NCBI GenBank assembly: GCA_021018995.1
Contig: CM037587.1
Coordinates: 61,168,104 to 61,232,103, forward strand
Direction: 5' to 3'
Source: Chloranthus sessilifolius
Lineage: Eukaryota > Streptophyta > Magnoliopsida > Chloranthales > Chloranthaceae
DNA length: 64,000 bases
Part shown: positions 39,072-61,689 of the stretch, piece after piece
How positions within the stretch are numbered: the first letter of the stretch is position 1
Layout of the letters: every line of letters begins with the position of its first letter
Program-made: the position numbers and the translations under genes
Notes under the pieces: generated by a model
What the model saw: only the letters and a program-made list of their open reading frames with translations
What the model was told of the DNA's origin: nothing
Databases searched by the model: none

Positions 39072-40611
39072 TGTAGACACCCGAATTTGGCCCAAGGCCC
39101 GATCAAAACATACTTCGAGAAAGGTGCACCCCAAGTTTCCGATGGCATCTCCCATTCCACTTATGAACCTTCCCTAACCCTTAGGAGCCTTTTCAAACCC
39201 TTAGGAATTATCCCCAACCTCCCCGGACCCTTAGTTAACCCTCCCGAGCAATGGTTAGAGAGAAGTGTACCCAAGGCTAGTAGGGGCCTCTACTGAGACT
39301 GAATTTTATACTATTAAAAAGTAGAGGTTCCCAGCTTTCCAATAAGCTAAGAATCACCTCAATCCGAGTTATACATCAAAAGTTACGACAATCCGAATGA
39401 CCTAAAACTGTACCTATTTGGACCCCTCGATAGGTTTCGAGCCTCTCAAAGTCTCTCAAGAGGATGGGCATGCTTAACGTATATAATACACACACTAAGC
39501 CATTTTTGGATAAATGCTGCCTAGCGTGTATATTCCATTTTTTCACAGAAGTGGCTTAGCGTGCATAATATACATGCTAAGCATGGATGGGTCCCCTAGC
39601 GGACTCTGGACTTCTCTGCCACTATAGTTATGCTTTGTGTATATAATACACACGTCAAGCTTAGCTACAATAAAATTTAAATTTTTGCCCAAATTTTACT
39701 TTTAGGGTTTGACTTGTTGACTACCCCAATGCTTAGGGTGGATTTCTTTAAGACTGTTGCACCTTCATTTACCCTATTTACAACCCTCTAGTCATTTGAA
39801 ACCCTACCCTATCATCTACCATTGAACCATTTCCCTATATATTTAAGCCCCTAAAATCCTAGGAGACCTTAGATGTTAGGATTACCTAATTGCTAATCAC
39901 ATTAGTAGTTAAGTATCCCCTTAACCTACCCCTTCTCTATAAATAAAGAGGCACCCCTCCCTTTACGAAAGCTTAAAAAATTTCCAAAGAGAAAAGACTA
40001 AGAGTTTCCTTTCCCCTTTGGTGCACCAAACCCATACAAATTCTAGAATTCTAAAACCTCTTTTAGACCCCATCTTCCATCAAAGATCCCTTAATTTAGG
40101 TGAGAACGACTCCCTAACTCTCTTCTCCTACCTCTTAGCCATCAAGCCCTAGGAGCTAGAACCCATCATTCAACCACTCAAACCATCGGAGACTCACCAA
40201 GTGCCCCTACGCGGAGGTCCATAGCTGTGCTACAAGGGCCCGAGAGCTCTGGCTCTCCCCTCTACTCCTCTACCTTCTTAGCTTTCCCTATCCTTGAATT
40301 TGTGTCTTTATGCCGCCAAAATCTCGGTGATTACAGAAGGACACAAATAGGATCAAAGTGCCTTTAGGGAAGAGGAAGTGCTTTTTTTTTTTTCTTTTAT
40401 ATGGCCATAAGTAGAGACCACATTTGAGGGGGTTGATCGGGTGCCTAACACCTTCTCGATCGATAACCGACGCCCCTACCCAAGAGCCTTTTGCGTGAAT
40501 CGATAAATCATAGTCATATTTGGCATTTTGGTGTATTTAAGGGTGGAAACTCTATATTTTTTAAGGGTGTACATCGTCGCGATGGGTTCGATGAGAATCC
40601 ACAGTTACACA
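39072..40611 (+). repeat. Left LTR of the Tat/Ogre element, 1.54 kb
   Basis: It starts TGTAGACACCCGAATTTGG and ends CAGTTACACA, two bases before the primer site. Within it are three or four imperfect palindromes of the TTAGCGTGT/ACACGCTAA family (39471-39501, half-site near 39518, 39552-39586, 39631-39661) and a TATAAATAAAG promoter string near 39938-39950, followed by a plausible transcript start. Confidence 0.8.
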
Positions 40612-40613
40612 GA

Positions 40614-40632
40614 TGGCGACTCTGCTGGGGAG
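40614..40632 (+). promoter_or_regulatory. Primer binding site of the Tat/Ogre element
   Basis: TGGCGACTCTGCTGGGGAG lies two bases after the LTR. This sequence is characteristic of Tat-lineage (Ogre/Retand-like) elements and marks the tRNA primer used for minus-strand synthesis. Confidence 0.85.
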
Positions 40633-40797
40633 TAGCTAGTAGACCTTCTCCTTAAAATTTGACTTTATTTTCTTACTCTTTTTACTAACATTTGATTGAG
40701 TTTTTTATTTTATTTTTTACTCACCCCTACGATACCGTCAATTTTCTCACCCCTACGTTTCAGTCTTTTTTTACTTACCCCTACTTTTTCGCCATTT

Positions 40798-40935
40798 ACG
40801 TGCCTTAGCCGATTGGCGGGTCTACTTGGGCATCGTCTTTACATTTTATTTATTTTTCATCATTTACACGCCTTAGCCAATTGGCGGGCTTACTAGCACA
40901 TTTATACGCCTTAGCCATTTGATGGGCCTACTTGA
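40798..40935 (+). repeat. Leader repeat, three copies of CGCCTTAGCC-ATTGGCGGG
   Basis: Three diverged copies of a ~25-base block spaced 40-70 bases. Each block is partly self-complementary (GCC...GGC). Confidence 0.6.
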
Positions 40936-41437
40936 GTATTTAATTTATCACTCATATACCATCAATGGACGCCGGCTCGTAGAGGTGACGCGGGATCGTC
41001 ACAACCTGTTTTTGAATATTAAGCAAACTCCCTTAAAATTAAATTTTGAACCAAGAGGGGGACTTAATTAAATTTTTACGGAGGTAGATTTTGCAAAGGG
41101 TTGAAATTTTAGGCAGTGATACAAATGTCCCGGTTCTTCGTACGGCGGTAGCCCCTAGTGGTGATGATCCGAAAAAGTACCACCCCATCCAGTATCTGGG
41201 AAGGCGCTTGCGCCAGAGGTATATCGGGTGGGTGACCGATCCAATTACAAAGCTAAAAACCCTTGGGGGAGTGCGTTAGTTGTCCCGAATCGACCTTGTA
41301 TCCCTAAGTTCGGAAAGGAGGGACCCGTTAAAACAAGAAAATCAGTCCCCAGAAGCATCACTTACCGATAAACTAGGAAAAAAGACCAATCTAGGGCTTG
41401 CTGTTCTGCTGTCAAGACTATTTATATACCCTGTTTT

Positions 41438-41612
41438 TGCCTAGCGTGTGTAAAATACATGCTAAGCCTTTTTTTTCCAGAATTGGTCTAGTGTGTATAT
41501 TACAAACGCTAAGCCAACTCTTTTCAGATGTAGCCTAGCGTGTGTAATACACACGCTAAGCCAAAATCTCCAGGATTTGGCCTAGTGCATATAATACACA
41601 CGCTAAGCCTTT
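41438..41612. repeat. Phased palindrome array in the Tat leader (4 copies)
   Basis: Imperfect 30-base palindromes start at 41438, 41484, 41531 and 41578 (spacing 46, 47, 47). The third is nearly perfect: CCTAGCGTGTG, TAAT, ACACACGCTAAG. Spacer bases differ, while the palindromes are conserved. Similar arrays recur in the LTR and at 60548-60717 and 61574-61678. Confidence 0.85.
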
Positions 41613-41899
41613 TCTGGGCTAGGCAACTCGAATCTGAGGCCTTTATCACCTCCCCGAGTCCCCCGCTTAGCGGCTCAATACCTCGGATAAGTCTCACACC
41701 CTTTAAACACCCAATACGTCCTCGTCGATCAAAAGAGGTCACCCTCTTATTGATTTGTTCCGGGGGATCGGGTTGTTTGCGTGGATTCCCTTTGCCTTCA
41801 CATAGCTCAAAGGGTTTTTTCCCTTGATTCTTCTAAAGTGCGTCGGGATCCCGCCGTGGGAGATATCTAAGGTACGACCATTGCCCGAAAAGGGAATTC

Positions 41900-43786
41900 C
41901 GAGGCTTCAAAACTTGCACTAGAAAGAAAGAAAAAAAAAAAAGAAAAAAAAAGCATCATCTGTCTTATCCAAAAAATCCAAAAGGAAAAACTTGTGGTGC
42001 CGGCACAACGGCATCGCCTTACCCTCTGTCATCCTGTAGGGGGAGGAAAAATTTTTACCGACCTCACCCGAGGCATCAGTACCCGACCCGCCACCAAGCC
42101 ATGTCGTGGGCTGTTGTTCCGGCTTATGCCGATCTTGATTCATCCCCGATACGATCCCCAACAATTCTTGTTTGAAAGAGGTTTTTACATCCACCCCGCT
42201 CACCCAACCCCCATTTACCGTCACCGGGCCCTTCGGTGCACCCATTTTCCCATCTACATGCACCTCACATACACCCCACTTCCCCACATCCGCTCAAAGT
42301 TCACCCATAACCAACCCATCCACCATGCACAATTTTCCCTCATTCACATCCAACATACCCCATTTTTCCTCCACTTCCATCATACCCAATTTTCTACATC
42401 CATCCACAAAATATACATTCTCCACATCAACCCAAAATTTACCTCATTTTCCATCCACATCTCCCATGCCCAATCTTCCCCTATCCCTTCCAAATACACT
42501 CAATCTTCCCTCCATATTAAACCAACATACGCCACAATTTTCCTCATCTCCCATACCCAACTTTCCACCATTTCCCCAAACCATACCCCATTTGCCTATA
42601 CCTGTCCAAAATCCAGCACCCTATTTTACCCAAGCCATGCCCAATCCACCACACATTTCCCCATCTACCCAGGTCATGCTCGATTTTACCCTGACCATGC
42701 CCAATTTTTCCCATACACCCATCCAATCCATGCCCCATATTCCTCCTTCGTCGGATGGACCATCTACATCCACCCCCTCACCCCATCCCATAGCCATGAT
42801 AGAGGACATGGTCAAAGCCTATACCATTGGGAAGGCCTCCCAAAGCCACCCTCATCCATCCCACTCATCTCTAAACCCATCCCATACCCTCCAAAGTCTT
42901 CATGCCTCTTTTCCCCAAAACACCAATCAATCCCCCATCATTCATACCACTTAAGACCCCCACCAACCATGAGGTCATGTGAGTGGGCACCAAGGCCCAA
43001 CGGGTCAGACCCACCAAGGACAACGAGCCAAATCTAGCAAGGCCTAATGGGCCAAACCCACCAAGGACCAATGCGCTAGACCTACCAAGGCCTAATGGGC
43101 CAAACTCATCTAAGCTCCTTACCCTATACCCAAGTCTAGCATGGCCTAAATCTTGGAGCCTCATACCCATACCCTCCACAACTCCCTCAACATCTCACTC
43201 ACTCACAACCCTCATACCCGACCCAATACGGGAACCTATCTCATATCATTCACCAACCCCAATTCACCAATCCCCCTACATCTCAAACTCATCCCCATTG
43301 ATTCCTCCAAACGCAATGGCCTCATCAGGCCCTAATCCAAAATCCAACCTCCACTCACCCTATCACTCCGCAGGACTTCCCCCATGTGCAGCGGTCCCAC
43401 CCAGCACCCATTCAGACCATCAGAAACCAACATGAAAATATCATCCTTTCCCCATTTTATGAAGACTCATAATATGAGAAAGACGAGATAAGAAACAGCG
43501 GGGCTTATATGGGGGCACACACAAACATCAATCCCCCACCGCCGGCGATCACCAACCCGTTGGCAACACAAAGTGAATGGAAGCTGCTTGTTGAAAGAAT
43601 GGCCTGACCGTCCAAAGGATCCGAGCAATTGAAGGAACAACTGGACAAAATCCAGAAATAATTAATGAAGATGGGTGGAGCTAAGATCCATGCCACGAAC
43701 TTTTCCGATCTATGCATGTTTTCTGAAGTTCCCTCAACCCACAAATTCAAAGTACTGGTCTTCAACAAATATAACGGCACAGGCAA
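41900..43786 (+). pseudogene. Tat/Ogre gag, N-terminal and linker part (fossil)
   Basis: A long Pro/Ser/Thr/His-rich open stretch (42172-42954, with an overlapping one at 41994-43037) is built from loose repeats of PxF/xPNF and similar. Before the nested element comes recognisable gag (QLKEQLDKIQK, FSDLCMFSEVP, KFKVLVFNKYNGTG). Gag forms the particle that packages the RNA. The region is broken in a few places and split by the Athila-like element. Confidence 0.6.
42991..43109 (+). repeat. 24-bp coding minisatellite, five copies
   Basis: Five near-consecutive units approximate CAAGGCCTAATGGGCCAAAC plus CCAC. A multiple-of-three period would add 8-residue repeats to the gag linker. Confidence 0.85.
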
Positions 43787-45312
43787 TGATCATTCACATA
43801 ATTTACCATTTTATCACCCTTGACTTAGTGATGCTAGGACTTAGTTTATTACTAATAAGCTACTGATGTGCAGATATTTAAGATAAGCAATAAGAAAGAA
43901 CCTTAATAATAATATTCATCAAAATGAACTCAGAAAGCATTAAGGATGACCATGGAACGGAAAGATGAAAGTTCCACCTACTGAAAGAATAAAAGAAGCG
44001 TTTATTACGATTTTCCAGAGAATCGTCCGTCAAGCCAATTAGAGTCACATAAGAAAAGCAGTATGAAAGTATAAAATCATTATTCACGATTTTATAAGAA
44101 AAAGACAAAAAAAGCTGAAGAATCATCTTTTACGATTTTTTTTTATGAAACATACTGAAAGCAAAGAATTGTGATTTACGCTTTTCCATCAAAGAAGTAG
44201 GGAATCGTCATTAGTGATTTAACAGGAGGCTTGCTTCACAACTGTTGATCATGTGAGAACCATAACCGCCATATACAGAATTAGAAGATTTCTACAATTA
44301 GAAGTACTTCTAATCACGGATCTGAGAAGATTAATGAAGATTTCTAGAGGAACTCTGCTGCTAAGTCAGAACATTCTTGAAGCATATCACCCGATCAAAC
44401 TAAAGAAAGGAGGAAAGATAAAATTAGAATTAGAGTTATATTAGGAAACTTTTATTTATTATATTAGAATTAAAACTTTATAAACTGACTCTCTATGATC
44501 TATAAATAAGAGAGCCTGGTATAGGAATAGGCATCAAAGAAATTCAGCATCAATTGACACCTGAGGTTGGATTTTCTCTCAATCAAAGTAGTGTATCATA
44601 GTCAGAATAGTTTAGATATCAGAAGTTTCTCAAGAGCAATTGACAACTGTAATTGAGTGCTGAAGATTAGTGTAGATATCTCTAATTTCTCATAAGGAAT
44701 TGACGACTTCGGCTGAGGGGTGAAGGATATATTTTTCCTTTCTTTCTAGATTAGATTTTATTTTATACAATTTGCAGCTTTGTAAACATCTCCAAGTTTT
44801 GATTTGAATTGACTATGCAGGTTAGAATTTGTAGATTAGTGTAATGGTATTTTATTTTTCATCTTCAGTTTTCTAAAGTTTGATTAATGACCAGATTTTA
44901 GGAAGTTGTTGATTAGATTAAATATGTATTGATAGAATTTTAGTATTGATTGACAACCAATGTGAGGAAACTAGAGATATAGTATAACGGTACTGATGAA
45001 TTTTATAAATATCCGATAGCTGAAGATTGGGATTGACGACCTCAATCTGAAGAAAGAGGATTAGGATTTATTTTATGCACTTAGTTTAATTAAAATTCTT
45101 TATTCATATTTCTCAAGTAGTTTAGGAATCTTAAGGATAAATAGAAGTTTTTAAGCTGAGAATTTAAGTAAAGGACATAGATTAGAAGTAAAGAGATAAA
45201 TGAACTTCCTCGTGGGAACGATCCTATGCTAGTACTATGATTTCCATTGTGCACTTGTAATAGGTTATGACTTGAATTTGAATTTAATTAAATACACAAT
45301 ATAAGCCGATCA
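43787..45312 (+). repeat. Left LTR of the Athila-like element
   Basis: It runs from TGATCATTCACATAATTTACC to AAGCCGATCA. A TATAAATAAGAGAG promoter string lies at about 44502-44515, and a leader with repeated AATTGACGACT/AATTGACAACT words follows. The matching copy is 48488-50011. Confidence 0.92.
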
Positions 45313-48300
45313 AGTTTTTGGCGCCGCTGTCGGGGAAGCAGAATTTATCTTTTATTTCTACTTTTATCTACCATTTTTATTCTTTTATGAACCAATATTT
45401 GTCATTCTCTTTTTATATTTTTTTATACTTTTAATTTTCTTTGATCACTTCTTAAGCTTTTGCAAGTTTATTTGGAGTTAACGAATCAGATTTCCAATTG
45501 CTGTTGGCCACAAACATTAGAGGCTTAGATTTGTTTCTCTCCCTGTTTTCTAAAATAAAAATCATATAGAGCTAAAAGCACAAAAGAAAATAGTTTGAGG
45601 AAATTGAAAACGCACTCAAGTACGCCTTAAATTCTTTACGTGTGTAATTCGTATACTGAATCGGTAGAAGAAATAGTTATTACCCATCATATGTTCTCGA
45701 CAGTATCATTATTCATAATAAAGTATACGACATTTCACATTTGTTTCAGCCGACGTACGAGTTATTGCCAACCAACTCGCTATAAAACCATTATGGCAAT
45801 TAAGCTCGGATGGATGAGAAAATTTAATACGATGATTTGCATTCCACCAGCCAAGTACTTTAAATATAGGATTAGTTCACCTTTAGCACAATTGCCCCTT
45901 TGTAACCCCACTAATCCATTTTTACTCATAACCATGGTGGACAATGAACCCACTTACAACCTAATTAAGTTATTTCCAATCTGGGAGAACCCACCACCAC
46001 CACCAGAACCAGACCCTCTGCAGTTCCTGTGGGACGAGTACGAGGAAGTACAGAAGATCTTGGCCAAGGAGGAAAAGAAAAAAGATAAAAGAAAGAAAAA
46101 GTAATGTAAGAAGATGGAACTATCTGGATCTTTCACTATACATCCCATCTTCACCTCCTCACCACCTCGTACACCTCATCTCCCATCATCTACACTCTCC
46201 TCACCACCCCATCCTCCACCGCCACCTCTTAAATCTTCTTAAATTTTTTCCTTTTCTATTTGACTAACCTACCTCTAAGCTGTGTCTCTTTCTTTTTGTT
46301 GGGGGCGACAGTATCTTGATGAAGCCGAAGTCTAGATTAGATTAGTATAATTTAGTTTAGTATGCGTTTAACTTTTCCTAGAAATTTTCTTCGATTTACT
46401 TAATTTTTAGTTTTGAGATCTCTATAAATATTGAGTAACGTATAAAAAAAGAATTTCTTGTTCATAACGTTTCATTTTACTAACTTTTTTTTGCCTATAA
46501 TCTGTGATTAAACCCTTTGTATTTTCTCTCAAGTTTGGGGGAAAGGAAAAAAAATTGTTAAATTATTTTTTTTGCAAAATATATACCTGGTAACTAACCC
46601 AGTAGATATTAAGGTAAATACTATGTTATATGTCCCCTGTTTTGAACAATGAGGACATTGTCCTATTTAAATTTGGGGGGATACATTAACTTTTTATTTT
46701 TTTAGAATTTTTTTTAAATTTTTTAATTTAAAAAAAAAAAAAATTCAGAATTTTTTTTCCTTTTGAAATATATCAGTATAATTTTTATTTTTTTAATTAA
46801 TCATTATATATGATTTATGATGAAAATTTTGAAAATCGAAAATTCTTAGCAATCCATCATAGTAGTAGGTCAGAATATCAAAATAAAAATAGTTATAATT
46901 CAACGTAAAGCACCTTTAGCACACTGTATCAGATGAATGTTTGAAATTATATGATTGATCTAAACTGCAAAAATATTTTTGATTGTAGTTTCAAAATTAT
47001 GTAACTAGTGAGCTTTAGGGCCATATTTCCTCTTTTCTTTTTAGAGAGACTTTTTTTATTCATGTCATTAAATTTTCTTTGAACTTCGCTACTATTGCTG
47101 TCAAAATAAAATCTCATATTGCTGAAATTAGAATCAATATATTATAAGAATATGATTATTTGTTTGTTTAAAACTGTCTAGAGAATATATCAAAGCAATA
47201 AGACATCCATATTAGTAAGTTGTGAAAATGATCAAAGGCCATCTTTTGTTAAACTAGAGCCAAAAAGCTAAAATCTCAAAAAAATATATCTTTTGAACCC
47301 ATATTAGAAGCCTAAATCGAAAATTTATTTATATCAGAATTATATAAACCTTTAACCATATGTACTGCCTAAAACTTTCTATCTTTAGCTCTTGTAATTT
47401 ATGAGAGTTTAGAATGCTAGAGAAGGGGAGAAGAGGGGGTGAAAGGATTATGCATTAAACAAATTAAGGATCTACTGAAAAACGATACAACTAAGAAGAA
47501 ATACAATTGTATGGGAAAAGAAAGGAAAATCGTGAAAGTCGATTTTAGAAAAAAAAAAAAAAAAAAAAAGAAGCAAAAAGCTTCCAAAATGAGAAAAATA
47601 AGAGAAAAAAAGAAACAGGGTTTTACAATAATAATAATAAAATAAATGGGAAGAAGTTATCCAACCTTTTGGATATTTACTGAAGCTGAAAAATAATAGT
47701 AGAAGATAGAGAGAGAAGAGCTAAATTCTCAGAAATACTTTTGAATCCTCTTTACCATTTTCTTTAAAACCTTTTAAAACCCAAAGCCTCATTACAAGCC
47801 GAAGGAAAGACCTTTGTGATTTACGATTTACAAAAAAGTGAGTCTAGTAGAGATCTATGAATTAGATACTATGAATAAATGAAGAAGTTATACGAACATA
47901 ATTGATTATCCATTCTATGAGATTTATTAGTTGATTGTCCTTAGAAACTCATTGTGAGAACCTAAAATTTCGATTATTTGTGAGAGTATGCCAAAAAAAA
48001 TAGTGAAAGTTTGGATGAAAATATTTTCTAAAAACTGCAGTTTAGAAAAATCAATGATGAATAAACTTTTCACTGATATACACACACTCCATGCGATACT
48101 GAATTGAAATTGAGTTTTAATAAAGGATAATTGTGGTGATGAAAAGATAAGGATAAAAGATTTGAATTTTTTTGAAAATAATGAATATATAATGATTGAC
48201 TAAATAAGTATTAGTGTACAAAATTAGTTTAGAAAATTTGAATTATTTTAGTTTGAAAAAATAATATTTCGAAAAAAAATAATAATTTTGAAGTTTGTAG

Positions 48301-48487
48301 GTAATTTTTTTATGAAAACCTTCAGGAGATTACCACTTCGCCACTAGGGATCACATAGGGGTTTAAAGGCTTGTTGCATTTGCTAAATGCAATCGTGCTC
48401 CCTTCGAAAGTGGCATTTAAGTTTTAGTTTTAAATATTTTATTTTTCCTTGTTCGCTAGGGATTAGCAAAGTTTAAGTTTGGGGGTG
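45313..48487 (+). other. Interior of the Athila-like element, no pol
   Basis: AT-rich DNA with poly-A/T tracts (46680-46745, 47545-47567) and one 154-codon ORF (45640-46104). The ORF's C-terminus reads NPPPPPEPDPLQFLWDEYEE and ends in a Lys-rich tail, and it is of unknown function. It resembles the non-coding interior of LARD-like elements. Nothing else is recognised. Confidence 0.55.
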
Positions 48488-50011
48488 TGATCATTCACAT
48501 AATTTACCATTTTATCACCCTTAACTTTGTGATGCTAAGACTTAGTTTATTACTAATAGGCTACTGATGTGCAGATATTTAAGATAAGCAGTAAAAAAGA
48601 GCCTTAATGATAATATTCATCAAAATGAACTCAAAAAGCATTAAAGATGACCATAGAATGGACAAATGAAGGCTCCACCTATTGAAAGAATAAAAGAAGC
48701 ATTCATTACGATTTTCCAGAGAATAGTCCACCAAGCCTATTAGAGTCACATAAGAAAAGCAATATGAAAGTATCAAATCGTTATTCACGATTTTATAAGA
48801 AAAGGACAAAAGAAGCTGAAGAATCGTCTTTTACGATTTTCATCCATGAAACACATTGAAAGTGGAGAATTATGATTTACGTTTTTCCATCAGAGAAGTA
48901 GAGAATCGTTATTAGCGATTTAACAGAATGCTTGTTTCACGGCTGCTGATCATGTGAGAACCATAACCGCCATATACAAAATTAGAAGATCTCTATAATT
49001 AGAAGTACTTCTAATCACGGATCTGAGAAGATTAATGAAGATCTCTAGAAGAACTCTGCTGCTAATTCAGAACATTCTTGAAGCATATCAGCCGATCAAG
49101 CTAAAGAAAGAAGGAAAGATAAAATTAGAATTAGAGTTATATTAGGAAACTTTTATTTCTTTTATTAGAATTAGAACTTTGTAAAATGACTCCTTATGAT
49201 CTATAAATAAGAGAGTCCGGTATAGGAATAAGCATCGAAGAAATTCAACATTAATTGACGCCTGAGGTTGGATTTTCTTCCGATCAAAGTAGTGTATCAT
49301 AGTTAGAATAGTTTAGATATCAGAAGTTTCTCAAGAGCAATTAACGACTGCAATTGAGTGCTGAAGTTTAGTGTAGATATCTCTAATTTCTCAGAAGGAA
49401 TTGACAACTCCGGCTGAGGGGTGAAGGATATATTTTTACTTTGCTTTCTAGGTTAGATTTTATTTTTTGTAATTTAGAGCTTTGTAAACATCTCCAAGTT
49501 TTGATTTGAATTGACGACTCAGGTTAGAATTTGCATATTAGTATAATGGCATTTTATTTTCCATCTTTAGTTTTTTAAAGTTTGATTGACACTCATATTT
49601 TAGGAAGTTGTTAATTAGATTAAATCTATATTGATAGAATTTTAGTATTGATTGACGACCAATGCTAGGAAACTAGAGATATAGTATAACAGTATTATTT
49701 AATTTTATAAATATCCGATAGCTAAAGATTGGAATTGACGACCTCAATATGAAGGAGGATTATGATTTATTTTATGCACTTAGTTTAATAAAAATTATTT
49801 ATTCATATTTCTCAAGTAGTGTAGGAATCTTAAGGATAAATAGAAGTTTTTAAGATGAGAATTTAAGTAAATGATATAGATTAGAAGTAAAGAGATAAAT
49901 GAACTTCCTCGTGGGAATGATCTTATGCTAGTACTATGATTTCCATTGTGCGCTTGTAATAGGTTATGACTTGAATTTGAATTTAATTAGTTACATAATA
50001 TAAGCCGATCA
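48488..50011 (+). repeat. Right LTR of the Athila-like element
   Basis: Same ends and order as the left LTR. Preceded by the polypurine tract AAGTTTGGGGGTG. Confidence 0.92.
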
Positions 50012-51872
50012 AGCAACTCCATTGCACATCTCAAGTCCTACTGCGGGGACATTTGCCAGTACGGAGGGGATGAGCATTTGCTCATAAAGGTTTTCCAGAA
50101 AAGCCTTACGGGCCCCGCTTAAGGTGGTTCACATCGTTGGAACCTTCCATAATCAAAACATGGAAGGAGTTGACCCACCTATTCCAAGAGCAATATGTCT
50201 ATATCATAGACATTGAACCCTAAAATTCAGACCTAACCCACCTAAAGCAAAAGACCGACGAAGCATTCAGCGATTATCTTGGGCGATGGAGGGCACTGGC
50301 ATCTCAGGTCAGGAACATAATACCCGACGATGAGCATATTGAAATGATATTGAAAAACACCCTCCAGTCATCTCGGACTTCTTGGTATATCAACAGCAGT
50401 CCAGCTTTGCTGATTTGGTGAGGAACGTCAATCGCTGCGAAGATGCGATAAGAGAAGGGTGTTTGAATAAAACTACAAATAGTGGGGGTCCGGAGGTTCA
50501 TTGGTCAGAAAAATGAGAGAAGAACTGGGGTAGATGTATAAACAGCCATAAGGGCGCAACCCAATACCAGCTCAACCCCATTCCAGTTTAGGACAACCCA
50601 ACCAGCACCAACCAGAAGTGATCCGATACCGAGAAACGAAAATGGACAACGGGCACAGATGACCCTGGAACAAAGAAAAACACATTTTGATCGAGTTTTC
50701 ATGCCTTTGGGGCAATCACTGAATATCTTTTTGCCCTTGTTAATTGAAAAGGGTTTGGTCACCGCACTCCAGCCACGACCCCCACCGAATCCAATCACGA
50801 GAAATATTGACCCTAACACCCATTGCAACTTTTATCAGAGACCGGGCCACCCAACTGATCGCTGCTTCCCTTTGAAACATGCGATACAAGACTTGATAGA
50901 ACCCGATAAGATCATCCCTCCAACACTTCCTCGGGCCAACCAACATACAAATATACACCAAGTGCCACTACCCTAACACCCACTAAGAGGGGGAGGCCCA
51001 AGACCCATTGTCAGCATGGTAGAGGAGGATGATGAGGAGTTTGACTCGTCGGAGTACATCCGCACCCATGAAGATTTTGTAGCACCACGGCGAAGAGACT
51101 GGGAGGATAGAAGTATTGGGGTGATTGAACCTTTGAATTTGGCTAATTACTTTTCTAACCCCACACCATAAGCAGAACCCTTAGATCTTAGGGTGTATTT
51201 CCCATCGCCCATCGTCAGCTCCCACCAACTACGTCCGAATCAATTCCTATCAACCCTATAATACATCCCCCGCCAACTACCCAATGGCCGATTGTGTCCC
51301 CCCCTCCATCACCGATCAATTATCAATGGCTCACCCCTGTCACATCACCCCCGATACAGTCATCCATAATCCTCGCCAACCCCATTTGGCCCACTTTATC
51401 CACCCTTCCATCTATTACAAAAGTTAATCAGGTGATCCCCGCCCATCCCAATCCATCAGCACTGGTATCTTCGATGCCCCCTTTCGCCCCATTCCAAATC
51501 CCGGGACTAACTTATGATCCTCATCAGGTCCCGCTCAGTTATGATCAAACATATATCAATATCGACAACAGCAAGGAGGGGGCAGTTGATTTCATCACCA
51601 GGTCAGGAAAGATCTCTATGCAACTGGACACACCAGTACCAGTGCCAGCCCGACTAGAAGGGAAGAAGGATACTACTGTGGTAAACCCATTTGAGAAGAT
51701 GAGCCTAGAGTGCATACTTGAAACCCAGCTAAGGAGGATGCCGACCCATATCACAGTCTGGGATCTATTATTGACACCCCCTCTTCATTTCCAAGCTCTG
51801 CTGGGGGTATTAAAGAATATGCATGTGTCTCTCCAAGTAAGCCCAGATGAGGTTGGACAGATAATAAGGTAG
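50012..51872 (+). pseudogene. Tat/Ogre gag, C-terminal part with zinc knuckle (fossil)
   Basis: After the nested element the gag wording resumes (AHLKSYCGDICQYGGDEHLL, FQKSLTGPA). At about 50821-50900 a CCHC knuckle of the Tat type reads CNFYQRPGHPTDRCFPLKHA, followed by IQDLIEPDKI. A Pro-rich stretch (51294-51560) leads towards the protease. Several interruptions are present. Confidence 0.7.
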
Positions 51873-52580
51873 GTGATGACTCTCAATGCCATCTCTTTTT
51901 CAGATGCTGATTTACCAGAGGAGCGAAATAATCATTCTAAATCCGTCAATATCACTGTAGAAATTGGAAATATGGTAATCCTGCTGGTATTGATCGATAA
52001 TAGATCTGCTTTGAATGTGTGCTCTCTGAGAACAACTACCAAGATAGGGGTGGATCCTTGTATGCTAAAGCCGACAAAAATCAGCGCCAGAGGTTTTGAT
52101 AACACGAGAAGATGGATAATTAGGGAAGTCGACCTTGAGCTCGTGATTGGGCTAATGACTTTTTCCATACCTTTCCAAGTAATGGACATTAAGTCTTCTT
52201 TCAACCTGTTATTGGGGCGTCCTTGGTTACATGAGGTCGGGGTGATACCTTCAACGTTGCATAAGAAGTTTAAATTTGTGGTTAGGCAGAAGGTCATTAC
52301 CATCATAGGTGAACGGCATGACGAAAGAGAAAAAGCCACCCATAATATTGAGGACCCCAAAATATTAGATAAGCCGCACACAACAGAAGATACAGACCTC
52401 CATAACTTTGAATACGAGGTATCAGCGGTAGTCCCAGAGCCTCCAGAAAGTATAACCCTGAAAATTAGAGGTGGAATGGTTGCTGTTGTGGCCATGCTCC
52501 AGAAATGGGGCTATCAGAAAGGTAAGGGGCTGGTATCCCGATTGCAAGGTAGAGGAGAGTTAGTTAGGGTCAAGGGCTAA
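51873..52580 (+). pseudogene. Tat/Ogre protease and G-patch-like region (fossil)
   Basis: It has the layout of Tat proteases: VLIDNRSALNVCSLRT (the DxGS-type active-site loop in altered form), ARGFDNTRR, FQVMDIKSSFNLLLGRPWLH, then GVIPSTLHKKFKFV. A short MLQKWGYQKGKGL motif follows, like the G-patch seen after protease in this lineage. The enzyme would cut the polyprotein. The copy is presumed inactive. Confidence 0.75.
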
Positions 52581-53557
52581 CAATAAGTTAGATTCGGGTT
52601 AGGCTACAAACCCACCGAAGAAGAGGTCTGAGAGGCCAAGGAGAAGGCTCGAACCATAGCCGCTGCTAAAGCTCGGAGAATCAATCTAGAAGAGGAGCCC
52701 TGCCCTAGACCTCACATCCGAAATACCTTTATAAGCGCAAGAATTGTGAAGATTGATCAGAATGGGGTGACATAGCTAACCCCACACAAACCGGTAGCCC
52801 TTTTCCACCCTACCAATCCCCAAATTATCCTCCCAACCTGGAAATAGACCTAGCCGCTCTGTCCCTTTTTGAGGAAGAGTTCTCCATACCTACACAATCT
52901 CCCCCTATGGTAAACCACTACAAGACCTTACTGACATTTAATGATAGAGTCCTAGACGAACCAAGGATCAACATGATGGAGGCTAACTCCAAATAAACAT
53001 ATTAATCAACCTCCTCCATTTGACCAGGTAAAGGAGTAGCACCACAGGTAAGGAATTGGGCGACTGTGCCCCAAACTCTGGAAGCAGCAAATGGCCACAA
53101 ATACGGCACAAGCTTTCAAAAAAAAATAGCCTGTAAAAAGTGTAATGAGCCCTTGGCAGGCAATACCGTGTATATATAGGGACCCGCCATGCCAAAGTCC
53201 CATCTCCGAAGAAAAAGAAAAATATAAAAAAATAGAAGAAATGCAAAATAACCCAAAAAAATTGTCTTTTAAAATTCTCAAGAAAATCAAGGAAAATGAT
53301 GTCTTAATCGAAAATCCCGTCCCACGTGAAATCACCCCTTTCCTGTAGAAATATAAGAAGAGGTAGGAGTCACGAGTCTGGACGAGGAAATCCCTACTGA
53401 GGAGCTTCCCAATGAACTCCTTGAACGGTTTGCCGACTTTGAGCATGGCCCTACCCCTATTGTTGAAGAAACAAGGACGTCAATCTAGGGACCGAGGAGA
53501 TTCCTAGGATCACCAAGATCGGAGTGACACTATCTCCCGAGAAAAGAAAAAGCATGA

Positions 53558-54652
53558 TTGATTTCCTTCAGTCATACCAAGACATTTTCGCATGATCATA
53601 CAAGGACAATGCCTGGTTTGGACACCGATTTAGTTGAGCATGAGTTGCCACTCTATCTAAACATCAGACTAGTCAAGCAGAAGTTGAGACGTCTCAAGCC
53701 CGAATTGATGTTAAAGGTAAAGGACAAGGTCATCAGGAAGTATGACGCAAGATTTCTTATGGTCTCCAAGTACCCTCAATGGCTAGCCAATATTGTCCCG
53801 ATACTGAAGAAAGATGGAAAGGTTTGCATGTGCATCGACTTCAGAAACCTAAATAAGGCAAACCCAAAAGATGACTTTCCTTTGTCACACACCGACATTC
53901 TCGTTGATAGCATTGCTAAGCATGGGATGCTCTCATTTATGGGCGGATTTTCTAGATAAAATCAAATCAAAATGGTGGAAGCAGACCGAGAGAAGACGAC
54001 GTTCATCACTCCATGGGGTAATTTCTGCTATCAAGTCATGCCATTCAGATTAAAGAATGTCAGTGCAATGTATCAAAGGGCAATGACAATACTATTCTAT
54101 GACATGATGCACCGAGAAATTGAGGTGTACATCGACGACATGATCGCCAAGTCGCCAGAGAGAAGTGATCATCTGATAAACCTCCAAAAACTGTTTGAGA
54201 GGCTAAGAAAATACAGGTTGCGGCTAAACCCTCATAAATGCGTATTTGGCGCCATATCGGGAAAACTATTAGGCTTCATCGTCAGCATGAGAGGCATCGA
54301 GGTTGACCCAATCAAGGTAAAGGTCATCGTAGAAATGCCACCGCCGTCCACTGAGAAGGAAGTCAGAGGTTTCTTGGGCAGAATGCAATACATCAGTCGG
54401 TTTATTGCACATCTCACTCCTATCTGCGCGCCGATCTTCAAGCTACCAGGAAAGGATTCACCCATTGAATGGAACGACGATTGCCAGGCAACATTTGATA
54501 AAATTAAGGGCTACCTTCTCAACCTGCCAGTTTTGGTACCACCTGAACCAAAGAGACCACTCTTCATGTACTTCTCCACAACGAAAATTTTGATAGGAAG
54601 CATCTTGGGGCTTGATGAGATGGGAAGAAGAGAGCAGACCATTTATACCTGA
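53558..54652 (+). pseudogene. Tat/Ogre reverse transcriptase (fossil)
   Basis: Landmarks in order: LKKDGKVCMCIDFRNLNKAN, MVEADREKTTFITPWGNFCY, VMPFRLKNVSAMYQRAM, EVYIDDMIAKS (YIDD catalytic motif kept), HKCVFG, LLGFIVSMRGIEVDP and RGFLGRMQYISRFI. This is a Ty3/gypsy reverse transcriptase of the Tat group. It is broken in at least one place, and the region before it (52581-53557) is degraded linker. Confidence 0.88.
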
Positions 54653-55510: not shown

Positions 55511-55519
55511 CTTAGACAT

Positions 55520-56990
55520 CAAGAATTTCCTCGAAACTCAAACTTTCCCAGATGGTACATCCAAGACGGTTAGGCGGACCATCCAACGTCTAGCATCAAA
55601 TTACGTCATCTACGACGAGTACCTCTACAAGCGATCATACAACAACATCCTGCTCAGATGTTTAACTGAAAGTGAGACAGCCAACGTCATGAAAGAGATC
55701 CACGAGGGAGTATGTGGGGCCCTCGTCAACGGCTACATGCTCGTTAAAAAGATTCTACGATAAGGGTACTTCTGAACCACCATGGAATCTGATTGTTGCA
55801 AGAACGTTCAGAGGTGCTATAAATGTCAAGAACACTCTAGTCTGATACATGCTCCAGTCATAGATCTATACAACGTGACCACTCCATGGCCATTTTCCAC
55901 TTGGGGCCTCGACGTCATCGGAAAGGTTAATCCAAAGGCTTCCAACGGACATCAATTCGTCCTTGTCGCCATTGAATACTTCACAAATGGGTAGAGACAA
56001 CATCATATGTGAATACCATCGTCATTCATGTTGAGAAATTCATCAAGAATAATATTGTTTGCCGGTTTGGCGTGCCCAAGGACATCATCACAGATAATGA
56101 CACCAACTTTGCAAATAAGTGCATCAGAGCCTTCTGCGAGTAGTATAAAATCAAACATCACCGCTCGTCATCGTATCGACCGCAAACCAATGGGGTCGTC
56201 GAAACTGCTAACAAGATTGTCATTCACATCCTTGAGAGGATGGTTGCCACCAAGGATCAAAATTTTAGCCGAATTGATCAAAATTTCGGTCCAAATTATC
56301 GGTTTTGGTCCTCATTGAAATGATAATTTGGATCGAAATTTCAGTCATATTTTGTATGGGATTGAAATTATCGGCCAAAATTTCGGCCAAATTATCAGTT
56401 TCTGGCCAAAATTTCAGTCCAAATATTCAATTTCGGTCATGCCCGAAACCGAAATTTTGGCCGATATTTTAATCCTTGGTTGTTACATATCGAGATTGGA
56501 GCGAAATGTTACCATTCTCATCATAGGCCTATCGAATGTCAATCTGTACCGCCATAGGGGCAACACCATTCTCCCTTGTGTATGGAACCGAGGTCATCCT
56601 GCCAGTTGAGGTTGAAGTACCCTCACTCTGTATCCTCCTCGAATTTGGCCTTCTGGAAGCCAAACAAGAGAGGTCCTGCTTTGAGCAACTGAACCTGCTA
56701 GACAAGAAAATGCTCCTAGCCTTGTGTCATACCCAGATTTATCAAGGACGAAGCGTACACGCTTACAACAAACGTGTTCGCAGTCAAGATCTGGAAATAG
56801 GTGACACCGTACTCAAGAAGATCTTCCCATCCCTCCACACCGATCGAGAGAAATTCAAGCCCAACTGAGAAGGACCTTATGTCATTCGAGAAGTACTCTC
56901 GAGATACGTAATCTACCTCACCATAATGGACGAAGATCACTTTCCCGAGCCTATTAACGCTGGATACATACGACGATTCTATTCCTAGGT
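55520..56990 (+). pseudogene. Tat/Ogre integrase (fossil), split by a MITE
   Basis: The core includes TPWPFSTWGLDVIGKVNPKA, NGHQFVLVAIEYFT, FGVPKDIITDNDTNFANK (second catalytic Asp), YRPQTNGVVETANK (catalytic Glu). After the MITE come ATPFSLVYGTEVILPVEVEV, IGDTVLKKIFP and EGPYVIREVLS. Integrase joins the DNA copy to the chromosome. It is broken in several places. Confidence 0.83.
56251..56477. mobile_element. MITE (AAAATTTCGGCC family) in the integrase
   Basis: The ends are CAAGGATCAAAATTTTAGCC and, inward from the right, AAGGATTAAAATATCGGCC. The interior repeats CAAAATTTCGGCC and CGAAATTTCGG words. Flanks TGGTTGCCAC and TGGTTGTTAC form a 9-10 bp imperfect target duplication, suggesting a Mutator-like family related in style to the GTATCG MITEs. 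Confidence 0.65.
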
Positions 56991-57157
56991 CTCCTGCAGC
57001 AAGGTAAGTATTGATAAGATGGATACATGACTGCTTAAGGACCCACCTATAAAAGAGGCTATAATTTCAAAACCAAGTAGCCAAAAACATCCCTGAACAC
57101 TTATACCCATGCTACACCCCTTTGAGCTATGAGCCTTTCTTTTATAAACCTCTCCCA

Positions 57158-57261
57158 GCAAAAAAAAAAAAAAAAAAAAACGAAAAAAGTGTATATCCCA
57201 AACAAAAAAAGAGAGTAGAGAGAAAAAAGAAGAAGAAGAAAAAGAGTTACCATAAAAAAAA

Positions 57262-57301
<40 letters not shown>

Positions 57302-57306
57302 TATTC
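57158..57306. repeat. Poly-A, GAA-rich and (TA)n low-complexity DNA
   Basis: A-tracts at 57160-57180 and 57253-57279 flank a purine-rich stretch, ending in a TA repeat to about 57303. The long minus-strand ORFs here encode only Phe/Leu/Ile/Tyr runs. Confidence 0.85.
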
Positions 57307-57694
57307 CAAAAATAGGATGTCTGAAAAAAACAGAAGAAAGAGAAAACCAAACAAAAAGAAAAAATAGAAAAGAATAATCATGAGGCATGTACAGTAAAAA
57401 TCCCCAAGGAAGAAGTGTATTATGACAACTTGAAGGCTATCAAGGAAACCTCTTAAACCCAAAATACCTTCAAAATTCCTAACCTTACTCATTACCACGA
57501 TTCATCCCGAAAGAAAGCCCTCTTCAAGGTCTACGAGCAGTCTCAGTATCCGTTGAGTCAATACGAGTCAAGCCATGAGACAATAAAAGAACTCCACCCA
57601 GCCAGCTATGACGGAATCAATATCCATGTCGTGGCCTTTGAAAAAGAAAAATATATATAAAGAAAAAGAAAATAAAGATATACAAGCTAAAAGT

Positions 57695-57890
57695 AAGATG
57701 GACGTAGTGAAAACTCGAAAGGGTGCTACGGGTAAAAAAAGCGAGTTTATGCAGATCGGGTGAAAACCCAAAAGGGCGCCCTAGGTAAAAATGTAAACTC
57801 ATGAACGTGGTGAAAATATGAAAGGGCGCTATGGGTTAAGAGAGGGCGATAGCGGGCACGGCAGAAATCCGTCTTGGGTGCTATGAGTAA
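57695..57890 (+). repeat. Degenerate ~60-bp repeats (GAAAACCCAAAAGGGCGCC)
   Basis: Three or four copies of GTGAAAAYxCGAAAGGGYGC plus TAxGGGTAAAAA, spaced about 60 bases. Such blocks are usual downstream of integrase in Tat elements. Confidence 0.6.
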
Positions 57891-58225
57891 AAAATAAATG
57901 TTAAGAGGAAAGAAAAGGAGGATCCATCGGGCACACCTTGTGCTATCTGGTTCCCCACTGGGTCTCTCATATTAGTCCAATTCGGGTCCCGACTAAGAAT
58001 GTCCTCACAAACCGCACCATCAAACGTCTGACCCGAGGTAAAGAGAAAAGGTTGATTAGACCCAAAAGGGATAGATGTTCCGGCCTTGGTAAAATTGCTG
58101 AACCTCACTCAGATCCAACCACGTAAAGGGGTTCGATTATGCACAAAAGAGAGACAAATTATCTCACCTTGTAGTTAAGGCATCAAACCAAAAAGAAAAG
58201 AAGAAGAGAGAAGGAGAGGGCAAGG

Positions 58226-58675
58226 AGGCCACTTTTGTAGAAGATAATAAATTTTCCCTTTCCCATGTTCACACCCACACTATGTGCACCACCACTGGGA
58301 AAGGAGGCCACTTTTGTAAAAGATAATAAATTTCCCTTTCCGATATTTACACCCACACTATGTGGCCACTTTTGTAAAAGAAAATAAAATTTTCTTTCCC
58401 ATGTTCACACACACACTATGTGCACCACCATTGGCCAAGGAGGCCACTTTTGTAAAAGACAATAAATTTCTCTTTCCCATGTTCACACCCATACTATGTG
58501 CACCACCACCGGGCAGGAAGGTCATTTTGCAAAAGATAATAGATTTCCCTTTCCCATTTATGTGTCCATACTATGCTCTTTACATCTAAAAACAAATCCA
58601 CCAATCAAAAGAGAGGAGAAATGATACTTTTTGTAAGATAATAGGTTTCCCTTTTTCATTTACAAGCCTACATTT
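58226..58675 (+). repeat. Minisatellite, ~62-78-bp unit, 5-6 copies
   Basis: Each unit contains GGCCACTTTTGTAAAAGA, TAAATTTCCCTTTCCCATG, TTCACACCCACACTATG and, in most, TGCACCACCA. The last two copies are more diverged. Copy starts are about 58226, 58301, 58363, 58437, 58515 and 58612. Confidence 0.88.
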
Positions 58676-58942
58676 AGCTTGTACCACATCCAAAAAAAAA
58701 ATATAATCTGTGATGTCTAGCTTCCCTTTTTTCCTTTTTACAAAAAAGAAAAAAACAATAAAAACATGAAGAAAATATCTATACCAAAAAAGATGTAACT
58801 GCATAGGGGTTTCTTATGCCCCCTTCTAAGGTTTTGATCTATGCAAAAAGGTATGTGCATGATGGAATCAACGACCCAACTTGTGCTTTAAGGTACAAAT
58901 CTCTGCATGTAAAGCATCCTCCCGAACATCCCGCTTTGTCAT

Positions 58943-60390
58943 CTAGCAGTCATGAAGACTCCTATACCGTTTCCAGGAGGTATTAGTAGCACCAAGAGCA
59001 TCACTGAAGGCTTCTTTCAGATGAAGAACCTCATACTCAGCTACACTAGCTCTGGCTTCTGCCACTTTCGGTCTAACTTTTTGTTTCTCTAAATATTTGT
59101 GTAGGACTTGCTTCTCGTCCACCAGCAACTCAATACGGGCCCGAAGCATCGACTCTTTCGACCAAGGCCTCCCTGCATCACTATCTTTTGCCTGGTCCAA
59201 GCGACAAGCAGAAAGCCTCTCAGATAGTAACCAAGCCTCATACCCTGGGGAGGTCAAAACCAAGTCTCCTTGCTCTAGATCACACATATGCGTCGACTGA
59301 CGCGTTTCCCAGAGAGCAGCTATCCTATCCAAATCCATTGAAGACCCCCCAGAAGAAAATCAAGTCGCATAGGAGTGGCCTTGTCACCCAAGGCACCTGC
59401 TGAGAGCAACCAAGCTGGCGCAACACTTGGAAGGGAAAATAATAAGTACTATTGGTCAGGTCGAGGAGAGTGATGCCCTCGTAATCTCTAGAGCAAACTA
59501 CTGGGAAAGTTCGGTCTAACTAGGGAAGCCTCCATACCAATTCAGCTTCAGACAACCAAAGCTTCACCCCTGAATATTCCCCTGTGACAATATGTGGCAT
59601 CAACCTAAAAAGCAGTGAGCCACCTCACCACAATCAACGTAGAAGAGAGGCACGGATCCCAAAATAGCAAAGTGCTCCCCAAGCCAGATTTAGAATAGAA
59701 TAGGGCATCCCTGAAGGCACTCCACTTTGCCTAGGGCAAAAGCATCACGACAACGATAAAGCTCTGCCAACACCATCTGCATCACAGAACGACCTCTCTC
59801 AAGTTCCGCCAGGACGTCGCATAGTGTGAGCGAAAAGCTCTCTCCCCCAATATAGAAAAGGACCTCTGAGAGAAGGCAAAAAATAAAAGCCTTTACGTTG
59901 TGGATCTTTCTAATCATCAATTTTTGCAAGCTTTCCTCGCTAAAAAGTTCTCTCAGGAATTTCATTGAACACCTGGAGGCCCGCCAATGAGACTTTTCTC
60001 ATAATCAGTTTTCTTCAAACCCAAAGTTGTATGGATGACTTTAGCATAGCCTGGTTTTGGCACTACTTTGGTAAGGCTCCTATCTAGCTTCAAACCCAAT
60101 AGGCTGGAGAGCTCCTCAAGAGTGGGAGTTAACCCACGCTTCCCAAAACGAAGGACATGGGTATCCACTTCCCAAGAGGAGGTTGCCGCGTGAATAAGAA
60201 CCCAAAGTGGAGGGACTTCAAGAAAAGATGAAAGACGGGTCAATCCAAACTGATCTATACCCGTGAGCTTGCTCTCATGCAAACTCTCAAGCCACTTCTT
60301 TAAAAAACTGGGCCTTGTACCCAAAGTGGGAAGTATAGAGGTCCCAAACCCCCCACGTGAGGCAGGATCGGAAAGCGGGTCTATGGTCAT
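58943..60390 (-). pseudogene. Antisense ORF region of the Tat element (PMD/DUF7745-like)
   Basis: The first minus-strand stretch (60390-59962) reads LTRLSSFLEVPPLWVLIHAA, SSWEVDTHVLRFGKRGLTPT and LEELSSLLGL, the core pattern of the plant-mobile-domain/DUF7745 proteins found antisense between integrase and the right LTR in Tat elements. A second stretch (59965-59690) and a third (59338-58943) follow. The third has charged, coiled-coil-like helices (ARIELLVDEKQVLHKYLEKQ) and is the usual C-terminal part. Function in the element is unknown. The region carries several interruptions. Confidence 0.7.
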
Positions 60391-60547
60391 ACAAAGATGT
60401 TTTGAGGATACAATTCAATGTAGGATGATGGACCCACCCTTGGGAAAGCAAAAACAAAAATAGCAGCAAAGTGTACACAACCCAACTCAAAAGAGAGAAA
60501 TAAGTGCATTCTCGGGCTGAAAAGGCACCACTTTCCCCAGGAAGCAC

Positions 60548-60717
60548 TTGGCATGTATAATACACACGCTAGAGCAAAATTTTCCAGGTTTTGCTTAGCG
60601 TGTATATTACACATGCTAAGCCATTTATTTTCCAAGGTATGCTTAGCGTGTGTAATATACACGCTAAGCCATTCTGTCCTCAGACTTGCCTAGCGTTGAT
60701 ATTACACATGCCAGGCC
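60548..60717. repeat. Phased palindrome array, 3' region (4 copies)
   Basis: Palindromes start at about 60548, 60591, 60639 and 60686 (spacing 43, 48, 47). Best copy: TTAGCGTGTGTAATATACACGCTAA-type, with halves TTAGCGTGT and ACACGCTAA. The array lies just upstream (on the minus strand) of the antisense ORF region, so it sits where that gene's promoter would be. Confidence 0.85.
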
Positions 60718-61139
60718 AGTAATGTCCCCCAAAAAGAAGAAAGAAGGCTGGGGAGGTCATTTTTGCTGGTCCCCTGGCCAACCCACTTGTATTTCCTGCT
60801 ATTTGCTTAAAGAACACATACTGAGATATGAAAAGTTGTCATCTAACTATTACAGAGTTTTCCTTGCAGGAAAGATCCGCACAGACATGAAAGTGTTGGC
60901 CACTATTAACCAAGTATGTGGCCCCGGGGCCATTCCTTTTCTAAAAATCTGAGTCCATCCTGCAAAAGATCCGGCATACCACAACAAAAAGGAAGAGATA
61001 GAACATACAATAGATAAAGAAGCACTAACATTCATTCTAAATAAAACACCATCTACAACATAGTCTCATATCATCCATTACATTTTCTAGAATAAAAAGC
61101 AATATCTCAAAAGTCTAAAAAGTTCATCAAATCAGAAAA

Positions 61140-61560
61140 GGCCTAATCCTTAGCAGTGCCCTTGGATTTCTTGCACCGGTGCGAGGAACTATGGTATGTC
61201 TGAACCTCCCCCACCCTAGACCACGTCTGAGATAGCCTGCCGATCAACGAGCGCGACTCCTCCCGAGCACGTTGCAAGCATCTTACCGGGAAGTTAGATA
61301 GGGGTTGTAAAGCAAAAATCCGAGTCAGTCAGTAAAGCACTTACAACTTACACATCCCGAAGATTGGCAATGTAGTGATAGTACTCCGCCTGATTGACAG
61401 CCGACTCATAATTCTGCAAGGAAAAAGGAGGTCAGCTATAAGAACCGCATTGCAAAAGCAAGTAAAGGAGATATACGAGATAGAAGAACTCACCCCTGGG
61501 AATAGCTTGAGAGGAGGGACCCAGATCGCTTCAGCAGATAGGCAAGCCTGTTCAGTCACT
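61140..61560 (-). pseudogene. C-terminal exons of a PMD-gene-like unit
   Basis: On the minus strand three exon-like blocks are bounded by GT-AG sites: WVPPLKLFPG before GTGAGT (about 61493), NYESAVNQAEYYHYIANLRD after TTCCTTGCAG (about 61420), and RAREESRSLIGRLSQTWSRV followed by a Ser/Lys-rich tail. I infer they are the last exons of a gene related to the antisense or PMD-like unit nearby. No upstream exons are found in place, so it is a fragment. Confidence 0.4.
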
Positions 61561-61573
61561 TCGGTATATTATA

Positions 61574-61678
61574 TTATATTATACATGTCAGGCTAAATTT
61601 GGCCAAAAGAAGCCTAGCGTGTATATTATATACGTCAGGCCAAAAGGAGCTTAGCGTGTATATTATACACGCTAAGAC
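61574..61678. repeat. Palindrome array upstream of the PMD-like unit (3 copies)
   Basis: Copies at about 61574, 61611 and 61647. The last has perfect halves TTAGCGTGTAT and ATACACGCTAA. It lies directly before the leader-like sequence of the plus-strand PMD-like unit. Confidence 0.82.
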
Positions 61679-61689
61679 AGAACTGAGGG

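Follow-up and report, generated by a model that had tools for sequence, protein, structure and literature searches.

No role has yet been assigned to the extra open reading frames (ORFs) that Tat-type retrotransposons of plants carry (PMC7264820, PMC11963269), and 57% of the Ogre elements have an extra ORF with a PMD domain (PMC6317226). In the Chloranthus sessilifolius genome, we analyzed a stretch of 64,000 nucleotides (assembly GCA_021018995.1, contig CM037587.1, positions 61,168,104 to 61,232,103 of the forward strand; "the window" hereafter) that holds a copy of a long terminal repeat (LTR) retrotransposon with two PMD-related extra ORFs, A and B, and four arrays of 31-bp palindromes (Table 1). 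Judging from its predicted coding content, the carrier of the arrays is an Ogre/Tat-like LTR retrotransposon with a Ty3/gypsy pol. It shares the Ty3/gypsy pol, the large non-coding parts and the PMD extra ORF with described Ogre/Tat elements (PMC6317226), the features present here being a Ty3/gypsy reverse transcriptase with RNase H and two PMD extra ORFs. No description of palindrome arrays common to the LTR, the leader and the upstream regions of extra genes was found among the top results of searches of the open-access literature, subscription papers lying outside the search.

Four described systems resemble this one in part. In the VANDAL elements of Arabidopsis, as here, a plant protein encoded by the element (VANC) goes together with short motifs that occur as tandem repeats in the element's own non-coding regions and vary between related families (PMC5735166, PMC10398659); such repeated motifs were present in 77 of our 80 copies found by their flanks. 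However, VANDAL is a DNA transposon (MULE), whereas reverse transcriptase and LTRs are found here; VANC carries DUF1985 and DUF287, whereas PMD is found here, with DUF1985 below threshold and DUF287 not found; and VANC motifs stand in one orientation, whereas ours are palindromes at a fixed step. Binding and demethylation by VANC have been shown by experiment (PMC5735166, PMC10398659), whereas the present system is known from sequence alone. Membership in VANC/VANDAL was thus rejected on protein domains, element class and motif orientation, and the two are analogous only. The palindrome centre, RTATTAY, resembles the VANC21 motif YAGTATTAY, a likeness to which we give no weight. Retand elements likewise have ORFs on the antisense strand, lying between pol and the 3' LTR, for which a regulatory role has been proposed and near which tandem arrays are found (PMC11963269), but those are TRP28 ORFs, whereas ours match PMD and not Transposase_28, and our arrays also lie in the LTR and leader. 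The PMD proteins MAIN and MAIL1 of Arabidopsis have been connected with a short motif of promoters, DOWN (CATGCAGTTT), and with the silencing of transposons; however, these are products of host genes, the motif is a different and non-palindromic one, and the authors did not settle whether the proteins recognize it directly (PMC7156037, PMC9899485). Gene23 of Grande, an antisense gene that a plant retrotransposon carries as an extra, encodes a nuclear protein and has a promoter to itself, an arrangement for which it sets a precedent, although the available part of that report mentions no palindrome array common to several regions (PMC7264820).

In the window, 13 palindromes passed a symmetric 31-bp template with at most nine mismatches, starting at 39471, 39553 and 39631; 41438, 41485, 41532 and 41579; 60545, 60592, 60640 and 60687; and 61611 and 61648. 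They form four arrays and none was found elsewhere in the window, and a weight matrix made from 137 sites (the window's own 13 among them) recovered the same 13 and no others, so that the four clusters recognized in a first-pass annotation of the sequence are confirmed. Its count of about 14 takes in degenerate palindromes near 39521 and 61574. The period of 46–48 bp that it gave applies to the leader array and to the array at 60.5 kb (array A), but not to the LTR array, with intervals of 82 and 78 bp, or to array B, with a single interval of 37 bp. At the same threshold, 30 Markov-1 shuffles of the window gave no palindrome.

The 2.17-Gb assembly was then searched for the exact pattern TTAGCGTGT-N6-16-ACACGCTAA (TAG-type), which occurs at 196 places, and for a variant, TTGGCGTGT..ACACGCCAA, in which the third base of each half has G-C for A-T (TGG-type) and which occurs at 354; the reversed control gave zero in both cases. 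With both the shuffles and the reversed patterns practically empty, a chance origin of the palindromes was rejected. Around 20 of the 50 TAG-type places listed, 10 kb was fetched each; these loci hold 37 arrays, of which 36 were placed by blastn of their flanking sequences (arrays masked) in the LTR, leader, A or B context, and the last, at L021:1093, is probably a B array from its position. All of the 20 TGG-type seeds checked (again from 50 listed) also lie in element contexts: 11 in the LTR, five in A, three in the leader and one in B. Thus 40 of 40 seeds, which represent 40 of the 550 exact places and all lie on contigs C1 and C2, fall within the four contexts, in agreement with the link to a Tat element drawn earlier from the window.

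For the unbiased ASCERTAINMENT, copies were picked by flanks only and not by palindromes. The queries (leader, 41621-41860; A, 60250-60540; B, 61690-61940; LTR, 39690-39990) gave 5193, 2975, 620 and 6051 first-look candidates, respectively, and 40 from each query were scored and matched. For every context, 20 copies were then drawn from the 24 best matches, excluding the window and skipping one in A and three in B; the set is therefore made up of the nearest matches to the window and does not sample the family at random. Two or more palindromes occurred in 77 of the 80 copies (leader, 20/20; A, 18/20; B, 20/20; LTR, 19/20) and at least one in 79. The distance between neighboring palindromes was 46–48 bp in 151 of 176 intervals (47 in 120, 48 in 26 and 46 in five), which bears out the expected excess of this spacing over many copies; 13 of the others, all in LTR arrays, were 78–79 bp, and 12 had other values. 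The LTR arrays of other copies typically comprise three palindromes at 47 or 48 bp with a fourth 78 or 79 bp further on. This last step (seen, for example, in L087, L095-L099, L104 and L106) contains an unrelated conserved spacer and is a second recurring distance. Helical phasing fits the spacing of about 47 bp, as would the inheritance of a 47-bp unit.

The two halves of the palindromes are closely tied to each other. Although 6–16 bases were allowed between the halves, the gap was seven in 155 of the 157 exact places listed and six in the other two. Mixed palindromes, with one half of each type, occur at 57 places (one in the reversed control), whereas about 283 would be expected if the halves were independent; the copies being related, no probability is attached to these counts. 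Covariation at symmetric pairs was 0.046 in 137 palindromes, against 0.003–0.007 for pairs slid by one to three columns, and shuffling of the 3' letters within homologous slots gave 0.030 ± 0.003, with none of 500 shuffles reaching the observed value. In the 247 palindromes of the flank-found copies the excess was smaller (0.040 against 0.032 ± 0.002; none of 300 shuffles reached it). The covariation of half-sites that had been proposed as a check is thus found in both palindrome sets and in the deficit of the mixed type.

Both extra ORFs behind the arrays, described earlier as "antisense and PMD-like units", match PMD. The window copies of the ORFs are broken, and open pieces from other copies were read only between stops. 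ORF A is identified by an open piece of 283 aa from a relative (L025:5256-6104; E-value = 1.5 × 10-10, above the cut-off), the pieces in the window alone giving 0.0036 at best, and ORF B by an open piece of 294 aa (L023:2222-3103; E-value = 1.7 × 10-14), with its window piece just under the cut-off (5.9 × 10-8). DUF1985 stayed below the cut-off throughout (2 × 10-4 for a single piece of the window; 0.085 and 0.19 for relatives), DUF287 had no match in the ORF pieces of the window or the relatives, and Transposase_28 (PF04195) had none at E-values up to 1 among eight ORF pieces. The median ratio of nonsynonymous to synonymous substitution rates (dN/dS), from pairs of at least 50 codons, was 0.27 for ORF A (21 pairs) and 0.18 for ORF B (16 pairs, one of them saturated and without a value). 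These low ratios indicate that A and B were both maintained as proteins, under purifying selection, while the family spread.

The arrays lie in the LTR, in the leader and 5' of both extra ORFs, positions suited to control, as had been remarked. Array A is 5' of the antisense ORF A, its near edge about 155 bp from the first ATG, and a T/A-rich box (TTTAAG/TATAAG) stands about 20 bp beyond it in five of six aligned copies, the window copy being the exception. Array B is 5' of ORF B on the same strand, the first ORF B piece of the window lying about 1.2 kb on, and a TTTTAAAA/TTATAAAA/TTTAAAA box is found about 10–15 bp beyond it in five of seven copies. In the LTR, the TATA-like CTATAAATA would be a part of the promoter, and at all four positions the arrays would drive transcription.

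The arrays are a genuine structure of the whole family, confined to the element in every place examined and regulatory in look. We propose, with about an even chance of being right, that they are control sites bound by a dimer and read by a PMD protein that the element itself encodes. Each palindrome would be a two-fold symmetric DNA site for a dimeric, sequence-specific protein, which would act jointly on the LTR promoter, on the leader and gag side and on the PMD genes A and B, and its binding would become cooperative and density-dependent because each array offers three or four such sites, set at a fixed distance of about 47 bp. The reader would most likely be the PMD protein A or B, by which the element would activate itself or counter its own silencing, in the manner of VANC in VANDAL transposons. 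Binding by a protein, the driving of transcription, the PMD protein as the binder and the counteraction of silencing are what we infer from the arrangement. Tentatively, we extend the proposal to an element that encodes its own anti-silencing or activator PMD protein, with operator arrays at the LTR, the leader and both extra genes, the protein and its operators having diverged together into two or more specificities (TAG and TGG), a fuller scheme that is possible and not yet probable. Two extra-ORF proteins under purifying selection come here with a defined candidate target, in the LTR, in the leader and ahead of both genes. If the proposal is true, sequence-specific anti-silencing extends beyond the VANDAL DNA transposons, VANC has a counterpart among retrotransposons whose sites are palindromic, bound by dimers and evenly spaced, and a function is found for the extra PMD ORFs of Ogre elements. 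A 31-bp probe makes the role of the extra ORFs directly testable.

If one protein reads all of the arrays, the site type should change jointly across the arrays of an element. In the 20 elements found by their leaders, the LTR was sought about 2 kb upstream, where an array was present in 15 and absent from the fetched stretch in five. The fractions of TGG-type sites in leader and LTR of the same element were correlated (rho = 0.78, n = 15, p = 7 × 10-4 uncorrected for relatedness), and within arrays the type was more uniform than by chance in the leader and in A (0 of 1000 permutations each). A tree of the LTR flanks from 36 copies, many of them chosen by site type, had, with weak support, four changes of type against a shuffled mean of 11.3. 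In a tree of the 5' region of ORF A from 10 copies picked by site type, the four TGG-type copies form one clade within the TAG-type copies, but the tree is too small to separate co-evolution from descent. The correlation of leader and LTR is predicted by an element protein that co-evolves with its sites; shared ancestry with only a few changes of type, or the transfer of arrays in blocks between elements, could produce it too. One divergent LTR array (L013:4021-4245) has GGGCGT/ACGCCC-like halves and perhaps represents another specificity.

LTR U3 regions commonly carry sites for host factors, and plant LTRs often borrow host enhancer motifs. It is conceivable, therefore, that a transcription or silencing factor of the host binds the palindromes and is exploited by the element or represses it. 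However, the sharing of site types between LTR and leader is not expected of a host factor whose specificity stays constant, and all 40 of the sampled seeds (40 of 550 places, on two contigs) lie in the element, so that we regard this explanation as unlikely. The CGTG/CACG cores of the sites do resemble those of NAC-type sites (PMC4081100), but the palindromic NAC motif is CGTN7-8ACG with the core TTNCGT[G/A] (PMC4081100), whereas our sites are CGTN11ACG with TAGCGT or TGGCGT halves. NAC binding sites were thus rejected on both core and spacing.

The arrays could also have no regulatory role and be a 47-bp tandem repeat of the Tat type, spread by slippage and recombination, with template switching inside the inverted repeats keeping the palindromes perfect. 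Family-specific tandem arrays are frequent in Tat/Retand elements (PMC11963269), and between slots the spacers are weakly homologous (identity 0.562, against 0.447 for shuffled spacers) and dyadic, as expected of a decayed palindromic unit: the 16-nt spacers (n = 99) form 3.96 of 8 pairs, against 2.18 when shuffled. However, the palindromes are much more alike between slots (0.758), the spacer length is steady at about 16 nt, and the arrays recur at four fixed positions (77 of 80 copies) and not just in the interval between pol and 3' LTR; we therefore consider a repeat devoid of function unlikely. The constancy of spacer length is notable against about 0.10–0.16 gap openings per mismatch in the flanking non-coding sequence of the same copies. 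Within slots (14, 10, 15 and 16 arrays of 20 used), identities of palindrome and spacer were 0.806 and 0.760 in the leader and 0.817 and 0.795 in the LTR, with bootstrap intervals that include zero, 0.784 and 0.651 in A, and 0.852 and 0.792 in B. The spacers, first described as unconserved, thus fall behind the palindromes in conservation when different slots are compared, but only a little within the same slot, and are weakly palindromic. We picture an ancient unit of 47 bp, with a dyad centre in the palindrome and another in the spacer, that was duplicated and dispersed, the 31-bp palindrome being kept while the spacer drifted at constant length. Protein sites and a simple tandem repeat, contrasted at first, are not alternatives, for the arrays look tandem by origin.

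Retroviral leaders use palindromes for dimerisation. Hairpins or dimerisation and packaging signals in the genomic RNA, the transcript of which would span all four arrays in a canonical copy and in which each palindrome is foldable as a stem with a short loop, are very unlikely here, because G·U is rarer than A·C among the mismatches (112 against 186 in the 137 palindromes), although RNA stems tolerate G·U, and because the placement 5' of two antisense ORFs would stay unexplained. In the flank-found set, with pairs 1 and 4 omitted, G·U and A·C numbered 70 and 113 in the leader, 42 and 88 in A, 37 and 51 in B and 42 and 64 in the LTR; the B counts were read in the sense of ORF B, and the genomic sense would reverse B alone and not the sum of the four contexts. 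This preponderance of A·C, contrary to RNA pairing, favours palindromes read at the DNA level. The RNA hairpins that the first-pass annotation had entertained beside protein sites are accordingly not supported, and a hairpin in the sense strand, which lacks the G·U excess, is not favoured. The excess of A·C over G·U on the strand read, in all four contexts, is a strand asymmetry.

Several points weigh against the PMD protein as the reader of the arrays, and against control by the arrays in general. PMD does not count among the established DNA-binding domains, and a comparison with relatives of solved structure gave one match at chance level for B (E-value = 0.86) and none for A. Uniformity of type is weak in the LTR (42 of 1000 permutations) and shows no excess in array B (973 of 1000); the flank-found B arrays contain no fully TGG-type site, so that a concerted switch is not supported for B, although one TGG seed does fall in a B array (L112). 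The gap of about 1.2 kb between array B and ORF B calls for a long leader or an intron if the array is a promoter, and no convincing TATA-like box was found where one was looked for downstream of the leader array. Within slots, the spacers of leader and LTR are nearly as conserved as the palindromes, and both the covariation and the sharing of types may stem from a few ancestral events, from block recombination or from self-correction of the palindromes.

Table 1. Positions of the arrays and of other features of the element in the window
Feature	Position	Strand	Remarks
5' LTR	39072..40610	+	TGTAGACACC at 39072; right end approximate; LTR alignments of other copies span about 39072-40540
LTR array	39471..39661	none	three palindromes (39471, 39553, 39631) and a degenerate one near 39521
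TATA-like CTATAAATA	39937..39945	+	read from sequence; some 275 bp past the LTR array, on its downstream side
Leader array	41438..41609	none	four palindromes at exact 47-bp steps
First long sense ORF	starts at 41871	+	downstream of the leader array
pol pieces	51873..54652	+	G-patch, 51873-52580 (weak); reverse transcriptase and RNase H, 53960-54652
ORF A (PMD)	58943..60414	-	antisense; broken in the window: 58943-59359, 59690-59998, 59962-60414
Array A	60545..60717	none	four palindromes at steps of 47, 48 and 47 bp
Array B	61574..61678	none	two clear palindromes and a degenerate remnant
ORF B (PMD)	62866..63673	+	in pieces; inverted here, whereas other copies have it opposite to gag-pol

The copy in the window is identified as a retrotransposon by its pol matches (RVT_1, E-value = 7.9 × 10-16; RT_RNaseH_2, 1.4 × 10-6, just under the cut-off; G-patch, 0.043, below it) and by TGGCGACTC at 40614, just past the end of the 5' LTR, which we take to be primer-site-like. 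The "one giant Tat element" of the earlier description is an Ogre/Tat-like element, and its window copy is not canonical: the PMD-B unit is inverted, and blastn found no 3' LTR in the 20 kb following the window. The unit (61.57-64.0 kb) is inverted relative to all seven fetched loci that hold both it and the 58-61.5 kb unit (L007, L012, L016, L019, L021, L022 and L023), and also (as 61564-64000) relative to the B match, C4:61071453-61071708, of a sister copy. Because the breakpoint of the inversion lies at a palindrome array, the arrays may promote inversions.

The apparent sister copy lies about 160 kb upstream on contig C4, where LTR-flank matches at 61047907 and 61073427 enclose matches to the leader, A and B. 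Its two LTR arrays (L088 and L090) are spaced differently, at 82 and 78 bp against 47, 69 and 78 bp, which suggests an old insertion or an exchange between LTRs. In the window copy, direct repeats within 43787-45314 and 48488-50013, 87–95% identical, flank about 6.2 kb. Another copy, L017, joins 43786 to 50015 directly, without this stretch, so that 43787-50014 probably represents another LTR element, nested in the Tat element. A tandem repeat with steps of 58 and 78 bp (58258-58578) lies just past the 3' side of ORF A.

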